This document shows, piece by piece, positions 4,646-55,622 of a stretch of DNA of 64,000 nt (within the stretch, counting starts at the first letter, position 1; each line of letters opens with the position of its first letter). The position numbers were made by a program, and so were the translations under genes. This stretch comes from Saprospirales bacterium (GTDB taxonomy: Bacteria; Bacteroidota; Bacteroidia; Chitinophagales; Saprospiraceae): NCBI GenBank assembly GCA_007695035.1, contig REEO01000041.1, positions 1 to 64,000 on the forward strand, read 5' to 3'. The notes beneath the pieces were generated by a model. It worked only from the letters and a program-made list of their open reading frames with translations. It had not been told where the DNA came from and did not search any database.

Positions 4646-6793
4646 ATGCAGTTGGAAAAATTTAACTACGACAACAAGATCGTTAAATACTTTGCATACG
4701 CCACCATCCTTTGGGGAATGGTGGGGTTTCTGGTGGGATTGCTTGCGGCTTTGCAACTCGTTTTCCCTGTTTTTAACTTCAATATGGCGGAGACCTCTTA
4801 CGGAAGGATCAGGCCCCTCCACACCAATGCCGCCATTTTTGCCTTTGTGGGCAACGGTATTTTCATGGGGGTTTACTACTCCCTGCAGCGGTTGTGCAAG
4901 GCGAGAATGTGGAGCGACAAAGTGAGTTGGTTCCACTTTTGGGGTTGGCAGATCATAATTGTAGCCGCGGCTGTCACACTGCTCGCGGGATTTACCCAAG
5001 GAAAGGAATACGCTGAACTTGAGTGGCCCATTGACATCGCCATTGCAGTGGTGTGGGTTGCTTTTGGTCTCAACATGATGATGACCATTCTTCAGCGTAG
5101 AGAAAGTCACCTCTACGTGGCCATTTGGTTTTATATAGCGACCTGGGTGACGGTGGCCATGCTTCACATAGTGAATTCAGCAGCCATTCCCCTTGATTTT
5201 ATGAAGAGTTATTCTGCCTATGCCGGAATGCAGGATGCACTGGTGCAGTGGTGGTACGGTCACAATGCGGTGGCATTCTTTCTCACGACTCCCTATCTGG
5301 GATTGATGTACTACTTTTTGCCCAAGGCAGCCAACCGCCCCATTTACTCCTATCGGCTTTCGATCATCCACTTCTGGGCCCTTATATTTATATACATATG
5401 GGCCGGACCTCATCACCTGCTCTATACCTCACTCCCCGATTGGCTCCAGTCATTGGGTGTGGTATTTTCAGTGATGTTGATATTCCCGAGCTGGGGTGGT
5501 ATGATAAACGGTTTGTTCACGCTGCGGGGTGCCTGGGATAAGGTGCGGGAAGACCCGGTGCTGAAATTTATGGTGGTAGCAGTGACGGCTTACGGTATGG
5601 CAACCTTTGAAGGACCGATGCTGTCTCTGAAAAGCGTAAATGCCATCAGTCACTATACAGATTGGACGGTGGCCCACGTGCACGTCGGGACCCTGGGTTG
5701 GAATGGATTCCTGACCTTTAGCGTACTCTACTGGTTGATACCACGGATATTCCAAACCAAAATGTATTCCACGAAGCTGATGAACTGGCATTTCTGGATT
5801 GGTACCCTCGGAATAATGTTTTACGTCATTCCGCTCTACTGGGCCGGATTCACCCAGAGCATTATGTGGAAAACCTTTACAGACGACGGAGTATTGCAGT
5901 ACAACTTCCTCGAAACAGTGACTCACATATTGCCCATGTACGGATTGCGCGCATTTGGTGGCTTTCTTTACATAGTTGGTGCTTCGCTGATGGTTTACAA
6001 CATCGTAAAAACTGTAAAATCCGGATCATTGCTGGATAATGAACCGGCAGAGGCAGCTCCGAGACCATCCCTGGCGGCAGTGGATAAAAAATATCAGGAT
6101 AGCAACTGGCACAGATGGATTGAGAGAAGACCAATGCAATTACTGGTGCTCAGTCTAATAGTGGTTTCCATTGGAGGATTGGTGCAAATACTGCCGAGCT
6201 TTTTGATAAAATCCAATATCCCGACCATAGAATCGGTACAGCCTTATACGCCGCTTGAATTGCACGGCCGCGACATTTACATTAAAGACGGTTGTTACAA
6301 TTGTCACTCACAGATGATAAGGCCTTTCCGCGATGAAGTCGCCCGCTACGGTGAGTTCTCCAAATCGGGTGAGTTTGTTTACGACCACCCGTTCCAGTGG
6401 GGTTCCAAGCGAACCGGGCCGGATCTGGCGAGGGTCGGTGGAAAATACCCCGATTCGTGGCATTACTACCACATGATTGATCCCGAATCCATGGCCCCCG
6501 GCTCCATAATGCCGGCCTATCCGTGGATGACAGAAAAGGAAATCAATGTGGATAAAACCCCTGCTATGATCAGGGTGATGCAGAGATTGGGTGTGCCCTA
6601 TCCAGAGGGATATGATGAACAGGCCATAGACGACCTCATGGAACAGGCCAATCAAATTGCAGCCAACCTGGAAAGCCAGACCGACGAACAAGTGATACCG
6701 ACCTCAGAAATAGTCGCTTTGATCGCCTATCTGCAGCGGTTGGGTACCGATATCAGCAGAGAAGCGCCCAGGGCTGATCTGGATGAAGAGTGA
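4646..6793 (+). CDS. ccoNO: cbb3-type cytochrome c oxidase, fused subunits I and II (CcoNO)
   Basis: Catalytic core of a high-affinity terminal oxidase that reduces oxygen to water. The first roughly 470 residues are CcoN, a multi-span haem-copper subunit with conserved histidines such as H59 (RPLHTNAA), H206 (WWYGHNAV), the GPHHLLY pair and VHVGTLGWNGF. After a linker, a further membrane helix leads into CcoO, a mono-haem cytochrome c with CYNCH at 550-554 followed by SQMIRPFRDE, the CcoO signature. At 715 residues it equals a CcoN plus a CcoO. The fusion is common in Bacteroidota. A 75-base gap with a hairpin precedes ccoQ. Confidence 0.95.
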   Translation: MQLEKFNYDNKIVKYFAYATILWGMVGFLVGLLAALQLVFPVFNFNMAETSYGRIRPLHTNAAIFAFVGNGIFMGVYYSLQRLCKARMWSDKVSWFHFWGWQIIIVAAAVTLLAGFTQGKEYAELEWPIDIAIAVVWVAFGLNMMMTILQRRESHLYVAIWFYIATWVTVAMLHIVNSAAIPLDFMKSYSAYAGMQDALVQWWYGHNAVAFFLTTPYLGLMYYFLPKAANRPIYSYRLSIIHFWALIFIYIWAGPHHLLYTSLPDWLQSLGVVFSVMLIFPSWGGMINGLFTLRGAWDKVREDPVLKFMVVAVTAYGMATFEGPMLSLKSVNAISHYTDWTVAHVHVGTLGWNGFLTFSVLYWLIPRIFQTKMYSTKLMNWHFWIGTLGIMFYVIPLYWAGFTQSIMWKTFTDDGVLQYNFLETVTHILPMYGLRAFGGFLYIVGASLMVYNIVKTVKSGSLLDNEPAEAAPRPSLAAVDKKYQDSNWHRWIERRPMQLLVLSLIVVSIGGLVQILPSFLIKSNIPTIESVQPYTPLELHGRDIYIKDGCYNCHSQMIRPFRDEVARYGEFSKSGEFVYDHPFQWGSKRTGPDLARVGGKYPDSWHYYHMIDPESMAPGSIMPAYPWMTEKEINVDKTPAMIRVMQRLGVPYPEGYDEQAIDDLMEQANQIAANLESQTDEQVIPTSEIVALIAYLQRLGTDISREAPRADLDEE

Positions 6794-40597: not shown

Positions 40598-42532
40598 ATG
40601 GGAGAGCAGAAAGTATCAATACTCAAGGGCGGTAGAAGCCTTCAGCGCTTCACCAGGCATCTGATTAACGATGTTGAAGCCCTCAATCACATGATCGAAA
40701 ATGACTGGTTTGAAAAAGATATTGTACGCATAGGTGCAGAGCAGGAAATGTGCCTGGTAGATAAAACTACTTTCAAACCTTTGCCCAAGAACATCGAATT
40801 GCTCGAGATGCTTGGAGATGTGGATTTTGCAGAAACAGAACTTGCGAAGTTCAATCTGGAGATCAATTTGGATCCCCGTGTTTTTAAGGGAGATTGTTTT
40901 TCTCAAATGGAGAGTGAAACCCGCCGCAATATATTGTACATCCAGGAGCGCGCTGATAAAATGAATGCCCAAATCATCCTCACCGGTATTTTACCTACCT
41001 TGAGACAGCACCACCTGGAGATGGATAATCTGACCCCGGTAAAGCGATACAAAGCACTAATGGATGCCATCGATTCCCAACTGCTCAAAGATGCTTACGA
41101 ACTCAGACTCACAGGAATTGATGAAATCAATATCAAGCACAACTCCCCCATGCTGGAGGCTTGCAATACCAGTTTTCAGGTTCACCTTCAGGTGCATCCG
41201 GGCAATTTTGTGCAATTGTACAACATTGCACAGGTTCTTACTGCCCCAGTCATGGCTATTTCAGCCAATTCACCCATTGTATTTGGAAAGAGACTTTGGC
41301 ACGAGAGCAGAATCGCCCTGTTTCAGCAATCCCTGGATACCAGAAGCAGCAATGAGCACCTCCGGGAGCGAAGTGCCCGGGTCTATTTTGGTAACGATTG
41401 GGTCCGCAATTCCATACTCGATATATACAAAGAGGATATTTCGCGGTTCCGGATGCTGATAAGTGGGGATCAGGAAGAGGATGCGCTCCAGTTAATCAAG
41501 GAGGGCAAGGTTCCCAAACTCAGAGCACTTCAGGTCCACAATTCCACGGTGTATCGCTGGAATCGACCCTGCTACGGAATCAGTGAAAACGGCCAGCCAC
41601 ATCTCAGGATTGAAAACAGGGTCTTGCCCGCAGGACCTACCATAGCCGATGAAGTGGCCAATGCTGCTCTCTGGTTAGGAGCCATGGTTGACTATTCTTC
41701 GACTTTTGAGGACATCACCCAGTTTATCAGTTTTCCGGAGGCAAGGGACAACTTCATCAAAGCAGCGCGATACGGAATTGATACGAAATTTACCTGGCTC
41801 AATGATATCAAGGTTTCAGCAGTTGACTTGATTAGAGATGAAATAATTCCCCGGGCCAAAAGCGGGCTGAAAAAAATGGATGTGGATGAAAAGGATATTG
41901 AGTACTATATGGGGATGATCGAAAAGAGAACTGAAAAGCACGTAACCGGCGCGAGATGGATGCTCAGGTCTTACAACGACCTCATTGAAAAAATACCGAG
42001 GGATGAGGCGGTTTCGGTACTCACTTCTTCAATCATCAGAAACCAAATGGCTTCTCTACCTATTCACGAATGGCACGCCCCTTCCGCCAAAGACCTGGAG
42101 ATCTACGAACCCTCTAAAATCCAGGTGGAGGAATTTATGACCACAGACTTATTCACAGCGCGAAAGGACGATATTGTAGACCTTGTAGCCGAAATGATGA
42201 ACTGGAGAAAAATTCGGTACCTGCCTGTGGAGAATGATAAAGGAGAATTGGAGGGACTTATGACCTTAAGAGTGATTTTGAGACATTTCTTGAAAATGAG
42301 AAAACTCAAGAGCAATAAAACCACTACAGTAGGTGAGCTCATGCTGAAGAAAGTGAAAACAGTGCGACCGACAGATACCATTCTTCACGCCATGCGGATT
42401 ATGAATGAAAACAAGTTTGGTTGCCTACCGGTGGTCAAGGGCAAAGAGTTGGTTGGAATTATTACCGAGCATGACTTTTTGAGAATTTCCGGTCGGCTTA
42501 TCGAACGACTGGAAGTAGAGGATGCAGATTGA
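40598..42532 (+). CDS. Glutamate-cysteine ligase-like protein fused to two CBS domains
   Basis: A 644-residue cytosolic protein. Residues about 40-450 match the GCS2 (carboxylate-amine ligase) type, with RIGAEQEM, FNLEINLDPR, NTSFQVHLQVHP, RIENRVLPAGPT and WLRSYND-like WMLRSYND near the end. Residues about 505-635 form a CBS pair, the first around VEEFMTTDLFTARKDD and RYLPVENDKGELEGLM, the second around VGELMLKKVKTVRPTD and GCLPVVKGKELVGII. CBS pairs usually bind adenine nucleotides, so adenylate control of a peptide-bond-forming ligase is a reasonable inference. The amino acid substrates are not known. Confidence 0.85.
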   Translation: MGEQKVSILKGGRSLQRFTRHLINDVEALNHMIENDWFEKDIVRIGAEQEMCLVDKTTFKPLPKNIELLEMLGDVDFAETELAKFNLEINLDPRVFKGDCFSQMESETRRNILYIQERADKMNAQIILTGILPTLRQHHLEMDNLTPVKRYKALMDAIDSQLLKDAYELRLTGIDEINIKHNSPMLEACNTSFQVHLQVHPGNFVQLYNIAQVLTAPVMAISANSPIVFGKRLWHESRIALFQQSLDTRSSNEHLRERSARVYFGNDWVRNSILDIYKEDISRFRMLISGDQEEDALQLIKEGKVPKLRALQVHNSTVYRWNRPCYGISENGQPHLRIENRVLPAGPTIADEVANAALWLGAMVDYSSTFEDITQFISFPEARDNFIKAARYGIDTKFTWLNDIKVSAVDLIRDEIIPRAKSGLKKMDVDEKDIEYYMGMIEKRTEKHVTGARWMLRSYNDLIEKIPRDEAVSVLTSSIIRNQMASLPIHEWHAPSAKDLEIYEPSKIQVEEFMTTDLFTARKDDIVDLVAEMMNWRKIRYLPVENDKGELEGLMTLRVILRHFLKMRKLKSNKTTTVGELMLKKVKTVRPTDTILHAMRIMNENKFGCLPVVKGKELVGIITEHDFLRISGRLIERLEVEDAD

Positions 42533-54419: not shown

Positions 54420-54427
54420 TACCTTTG
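54420..54427 (+). promoter_or_regulatory. -7 promoter element of the eRF1-like gene
   Basis: TACCTTTG, an exact TAnnTTTG match, 37 bases before the start codon. Confidence 0.5.
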
Positions 54428-54464
54428 GGGCCTTTTTAAGAAAAGTGATATAAATTATCAAGAC

Positions 54465-55535
54465 ATGATAGAAAAAACATTAAAGGAGATTAAGGATGTG
54501 TTGGAGTATCCGAGTGTGACTATTTTGATGAAAACGCATCGCACGCATCCCGAAAACAAAAAGGATGCAACCCGTCTGCGAAATTTGTTGAGAGATGCAG
54601 AAAACAGGTTGTTGGGTGACTTCAACAAGCGAGAGATTGATGGGCTGTTGAAAAACCTCAAAAAATACGAGGATGGATTTGACCACAACCTGAATTTGGA
54701 CAGTCTTGTGTTATTTGTAAATTCCGATACTGCCCGGCACGTCCGACTACCGATTGAGGTTGAGGAACGGGTGATTATTGATAAGAACTTTGCCACCAGA
54801 GACCTGGTCAGGGCACTGCATAAAGAAGAGCACTACTACATATTGCGACTCAGCCAAAACAGTGTGAACCTCTTTGAAGCCTACAGTGATCGGCCGGTGA
54901 GAGAGGTGAATGAAGGAGAATTCCCCATGGAAAATGAATTGTACAATACCGATACTCTCAAAAGGTCAATGGCTGCCAAAGAGGACAACATGAGCAGAGA
55001 GTTTTTCAACAGAGTGGACAAAGCTTTTCAAAAGCTACACAATCAAGATCCACTCGGCGTTGTACTAGTGGGAGTGGACCGCAATATCTCCTTCTTCAGA
55101 GAAGTAATGGACAACAGTCAGATTGTGATAGGTTCACTTATTAAGAACCTGGATCACAAAACCCCTTATCAGGTGGTTAAAGAAGTGTGGCCGGTGGCCC
55201 AGGAGGGAATCATAGAGAGGCGAAAAGAAGCTCTTGATAAGTTGGGAACTGCAATTGGACAAAACAAGTTTTCCACTGATCTCAACGATATATGGAAGAT
55301 GGTCAATCAAGGTAGAGGCGATCTCCTACTGGTGGAAAACGATTACTTCCAGCCGGCTAAACTAGATGAGGACAATCGCTTAAAGCTAATGGAGCACCAG
55401 ACAGAACCCGGAGTGATAGATGACATTGTTGATGAAATTATAGAAAGACATCTCAGTAAGGGAGGTACTATTACCTTTATGGATAATGGTCAGTTGAAAG
55501 ATCATCAGGGGATCGCCCTTGTTTTGAGGTATTAA
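54465..55535 (+). CDS. Bacterial eRF1-like protein (baeRF/Balon-type candidate ribosome hibernation factor)
   Basis: A 356-residue cytosolic protein with the layout of bacterial archaeo-eukaryotic release-factor-like (baeRF) proteins. The N-terminal domain (about 1-125) includes SLVLFVNSDTARHVRLP and KNFATRDLVRALH. The middle domain (about 170-250) carries GVVLVGVDRNISFFREV. The C-terminal domain ends in GGTITFMD and IALVLRY, the usual baeRF finish. I do not see a GGQ motif, so it should not release peptides. Balon, a member of this broad group, binds the A site of dormant ribosomes in Psychrobacter. A hibernation role here is inferred. It is a single gene with its own promoter and terminator. 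Confidence 0.75.
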   Translation: MIEKTLKEIKDVLEYPSVTILMKTHRTHPENKKDATRLRNLLRDAENRLLGDFNKREIDGLLKNLKKYEDGFDHNLNLDSLVLFVNSDTARHVRLPIEVEERVIIDKNFATRDLVRALHKEEHYYILRLSQNSVNLFEAYSDRPVREVNEGEFPMENELYNTDTLKRSMAAKEDNMSREFFNRVDKAFQKLHNQDPLGVVLVGVDRNISFFREVMDNSQIVIGSLIKNLDHKTPYQVVKEVWPVAQEGIIERRKEALDKLGTAIGQNKFSTDLNDIWKMVNQGRGDLLLVENDYFQPAKLDEDNRLKLMEHQTEPGVIDDIVDEIIERHLSKGGTITFMDNGQLKDHQGIALVLRY

Positions 55536-55580
55536 TACTTTGAGAATATAATGGGCCTTCCTCCTGAAGAGGAAAGATAA

Positions 55581-55622
55581 AAAACCCGCTACCGCTAAAA
55601 TGTTGGTAAGCGGGTTTTTTTA
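55581..55622 (+). terminator. Intrinsic terminator of the eRF1-like gene
   Basis: AACCCGCTACC pairs with GGTAAGCGGGTT (one bulged A) and is followed by seven Ts. It ends the single-gene unit. Confidence 0.85.

Follow-up and report, generated by a model that had tools for sequence, protein, structure and literature searches.

The locus under study lies in a stretch of 64,000 nucleotides (the window) and contains an open reading frame of 356 codons at 54465-55535 on the forward strand, which starts with ATG and encodes a product of 356 aa (41.4 kDa, pI 5.7). The following features were assigned to it:

54420..54427, + strand: TACCTTTG, candidate -7 element of a Bacteroidota promoter; fits TAnnTTTG, no clear -33 TTTG.
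54465..55535, + strand: gene for a 356-aa protein with three eRF1-like domains, predicted to be a ribosome hibernation factor of the Balon family (baeRF family 3); from NF052287, PF18845, phmmer and Foldseek.
54546..54551, + strand: codons of the HP motif (H28-P29); from the alignment with the Balon HP motif (THREHPAN / THRTHPEN).
54906..54974, + strand: middle-domain loop, around residues 148-170, at the GGQ position of eRF1; from DSSP, pLDDT and alignment.
55578..55621 (about), + strand: intrinsic terminator with stem CCCGC...GCGGG and T7; fold z = -3.5.

The gene stands apart from its neighbours. The end of the upstream gene, which is found on the same strand and encodes an NAD-dependent epimerase with a DUF1731 domain, is separated from the start codon by 761 bp, and 439 bp lie between the stop codon and the downstream gene for a SusC-like receptor, which is accompanied by a gene for a SusD-like lipoprotein. 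No co-directional neighbour is close enough for an operon, in line with the single-gene unit proposed in the initial annotation. More specifically, an operon with the epimerase/DUF1731 gene was rejected on account of the 761-bp gap, which measures 416 and 403 bp in the related loci L034 and L035, and of the genes that intervene in L033. In the same-genus relatives the epimerase gene remains upstream but the downstream genes differ, so that in the sampled relatives the Balon gene forms a unit of its own. In L032 (6511-10885) the adjoining SusC and SusD are only 34% and 25% identical to the pair in the window, although the Balon proteins are 94% identical, which suggests a replacement of that adjoining locus. 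The gene has no raiA, chaperone or stress gene as an immediate neighbour, and in this it differs from many Balon genes. Elsewhere in the window, a 644-aa protein (40598-42532, + strand) carries a region that weakly resembles glutamate-cysteine ligase (GCS2) and two C-terminal CBS domains. A 715-aa open reading frame (4646-6793, + strand) reads by eye as the catalytic subunit of a cytochrome cbb3 oxidase fused to a CcoO-like haem subunit, and adjoins what appear, again by eye, to be other cbb3 and FixG-like genes.

The signals that flank the gene differ in quality. A TAnnTTTG promoter of its own had been claimed for the gene, and the box is present; it occurs at the aligned position in four of the five same-genus orthologues (L031, L032, L034 and L035), with TAnnnTTTG in L033. 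Nevertheless, the 8-mer shows no enrichment across the window (53 occurrences, with 46.7 expected by chance), and the three matches to the complete TTTG-N18-23-TAnnTTTG pattern do not include the TACCTTTG site. Because the box is no commoner than chance and lacks a TTTG at the -33 spacing, it is a plausible but weak promoter candidate. The terminator, which had been called strong, stood up well: a folding energy of -28 kcal/mol (z = -3.5) was obtained for the 90-nt region, only one in 200 shuffles doing as well, and a hairpin followed by a T run is found in four of the five relatives. The two closest of these (L031 and L032) keep the CCCGC/GCGGG stem, and L034 and L035 have a different GGGGC hairpin with a T run at that position. 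A scan for sigma-70 promoters and terminators showed no excess of either and missed the terminator at 55578-55621, probably on account of a bulge. Rfam yielded no match over the whole window, and therefore no known leader RNA upstream of the Balon gene.

The family assignment is clear from profile and sequence searches. The NCBIfam equivalog NF052287 covers the protein over its complete length (408.7 bits, profile 1-361/361; the cut-off is 330 bits), and the same holds for the Pfam model PF18845 of baeRF_family3 (E=7.7e-41, 140.7 bits, profile 1-168/168; gathering score 31.5 bits), whereas the models of baeRF families 6, 7 and 8 match more weakly. NF052287 is named after the locus AOC03_06830, which we take to be the Balon locus of Psychrobacter urativorans and which fits the match to 8rd8. 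A phmmer search of the PDB returned a single match, chain 8rd8_B, which is Balon (E = 2e-62, residues 4-356 on 3-369), with 36% identity from end to end. The depositors named this chain 'Methyl-accepting chemotaxis protein', but the entry itself is the Balon-bound 70S ribosome. A profile search with 31 homologues recovered Balon at 5.7e-93, Msmeg1130 at 7.6e-10 and Rv2629 at 1.4e-4, all three of which have been solved on ribosomes, and weakly also archaeal RF1. In a maximum-likelihood tree Balon and the window protein fall into one group with 14 Bacteroidota proteins (99/96). A comparison with PHROGs gave no significant match. By these sequence measures the protein is a Balon orthologue of baeRF family 3, a member of Balon's own family. 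Thus, the initial placement among the eRF1-like, baeRF-type hibernation factors is borne out by Pfam, NCBIfam, phmmer and Foldseek alike, and the baeRF profile search proposed at that stage answers the question of the subgroup with baeRF_family3; the assignment had been made to depend on a profile match, which was found with both PF18845 and NF052287. The description of Balon as a distant relative, on the other hand, has to be abandoned, as the E-value of 2e-62 and the passed equivalog model make Balon a direct, full-length member of the family.

The predicted structure leads in the same direction. A template-free AlphaFold2 model of the protein, built with 31 window and locus sequences, reached a pLDDT of 86.5. 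When it was compared with the PDB by Foldseek, the first three matches were the Balon chains 8rdw_B, 8rdv_B and 8rd8_B (E 6e-34 to 1e-31, prob 1.00), followed by the mycobacterial Balon Msmeg1130, aRF1, eRF1 and Pelota. The model thus has the three-domain fold of eRF1 and Pelota, and the possibility of a dissimilar fold, against which a structural comparison with Balon had been advised, did not materialize. Over the whole chain, the model and ribosome-bound Balon superpose with a TM-score of only 0.68-0.69 (rmsd 6.3-6.6 A), which may be attributed to interdomain angles.

The motifs provide a further point of comparison. The initial annotation had listed two end motifs of the baeRF group, of which IALVLRY is indeed the C-terminus of the protein, whereas GVVLVGVDRNISFFREV lies in the middle domain (around residues 197-213) and is not an end motif. 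The HP motif of the N domain is present in all six same-genus sequences. A scan of the 356-aa sequence confirmed that GGQ is absent, as had been stated, and found no NIKS either; the sole GG dipeptide, residues 333-334, is close to the C-terminal end. These observations bear on the idea that the protein is a ribosome-rescue or peptide-release factor, one that frees stalled ribosomes whether by hydrolysis or not. Such a role, either catalytic or Dom34-like, was proposed for the baeRF proteins in 2019, before Balon was solved (PMC6514570), and would be compatible with the eRF1/Pelota fold. Because GGQ is missing and the protein resembles Balon in sequence far more than it resembles any release factor, we regard it as very unlikely for this protein, the lack of NIKS and the position of the only GG dipeptide likewise speaking against it. 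A class I release factor of the aeRF1 type was rejected, as the catalytic GGQ motif is absent.

In the middle domain, pLDDT is low at residues 164-168, ahead of the long helix, where eRF1 has its GGQ. According to the alignment, the loop that precedes this helix lacks about 10 residues relative to Balon. The loop is presumed to be the counterpart of the lasso and bL27-trap region of Balon, and its lasso or bL27-trap contacts may consequently differ from those of Balon. That the Bacteroidota Balon is a structural variant, in which the shorter loop contacts the peptidyl-transferase centre or bL27 differently than in Psychrobacter, seems to us unlikely.

Within the genus, an orthologue of 69-97% identity was found in five of the seven other genomes. 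In one genome of the genus, which lacks a close orthologue, the sole baeRF protein (L015/L026, G005:C86:6986-8077) is divergent (about 33%/21% identity); a replacement or a gap in the assembly may account for this. For pairs with unsaturated dS, dN/dS of the Balon gene is 0.03-0.06; the gene is under strong purifying selection. Class-wide, 50 of the 295 genomes have a match to the Balon model and 6 pass its cut-off, the window genome being one of them. Many divergent baeRF families coexist in the Bacteroidia, and one could imagine that a family-3 paralogue has diverged and taken on a different task, for instance shielding from antibiotics or nucleases, in which case the shorter loop and the lack of stress-gene neighbours would find a place. 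However, no Balon paralogues were found in the genome, where the window protein is the only family-3 match, the equivalog cut-off is passed as in so few genomes of the class, and both the HP motif and strong purifying selection are retained, so that a drifted paralogue must be considered highly improbable. A search of the available literature yielded no Bacteroidota Balon, and we know of no Bacteroidota member that has been tested on ribosomes.

In the solved structures, members of the Balon family are bound at the A site in an mRNA-independent manner. Balon touches A1492 and A1913 through its HP motif, loops around A2602 and traps the tail of bL27; it was bound with EF-Tu(GDP), a partner that was also shown for Msmeg1130 (all PMC10901736). 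By analogy, we consider it highly probable (roughly 0.9) that the window protein is a hibernation factor of the Balon type, which would occupy the A site with EF-Tu(GDP) regardless of mRNA and keep the ribosome inactive and protected. This reading is supported by the equivalog score, the match to 8rd8_B with the HP motif aligned, the fold, the tree, dN/dS and the presence of a short HPF/RaiA (97 aa) in the same genome; the latter is encoded on another contig, after a gene that was recognised by eye as a XerC/D-like recombinase. Under stress, the protein would move into the A site of 70S ribosomes, be they vacant or elongating, and would do so without reading the mRNA. The HP motif of its N domain would touch the decoding centre, the middle domain, without GGQ, would be positioned at the peptidyl-transferase centre and not hydrolyse peptidyl-tRNA, and the C domain would recruit EF-Tu(GDP). 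The outcome would be an idle, protected and recoverable ribosome, probably alongside the separate HPF/RaiA. That the window protein binds ribosomes, has EF-Tu(GDP) as its partner and acts under stress is inferred from the solved family members.

The gene is an ordinary, well-preserved Balon gene in an uncultured Saprospiraceae-related bacterium, and it extends a known family without a new mechanism or a new question. Its relevance is that a true Balon orthologue, and not only a loose baeRF relative, stands alone in a Saprospiraceae-related genus; should its function be demonstrated, it would be of use in mapping which bacteria use Balon-EF-Tu hibernation.

Compared with known systems, the protein is nearest to Balon of P. 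urativorans (PDB 8rd8, 8rdv, 8rdw; PMC10901736), with which it shares homology over the full length, the order of the three domains, the fold, the HP motif, the lack of GGQ and NIKS, and the C-terminal IALVxRY. It differs in the 36% level of identity, in the loop that is some 10 residues shorter, in its phylum and in the isolated position of its gene. Msmeg1130 and Rv2629 (PDB 8v9j, 8v9k, 8v9l) have the same fold and belong to the same class of A-site ligands, but identity by Foldseek is 13-17%, and the mycobacterial Balon model NF052288 gives the window protein 30 bits against a cut-off of 480. With aeRF1 and Pelota/Dom34 the three-domain fold is held in common (Foldseek E 3e-15 and about 3e-9), whereas the window protein is 9-16% identical to them and carries neither GGQ nor NIKS.
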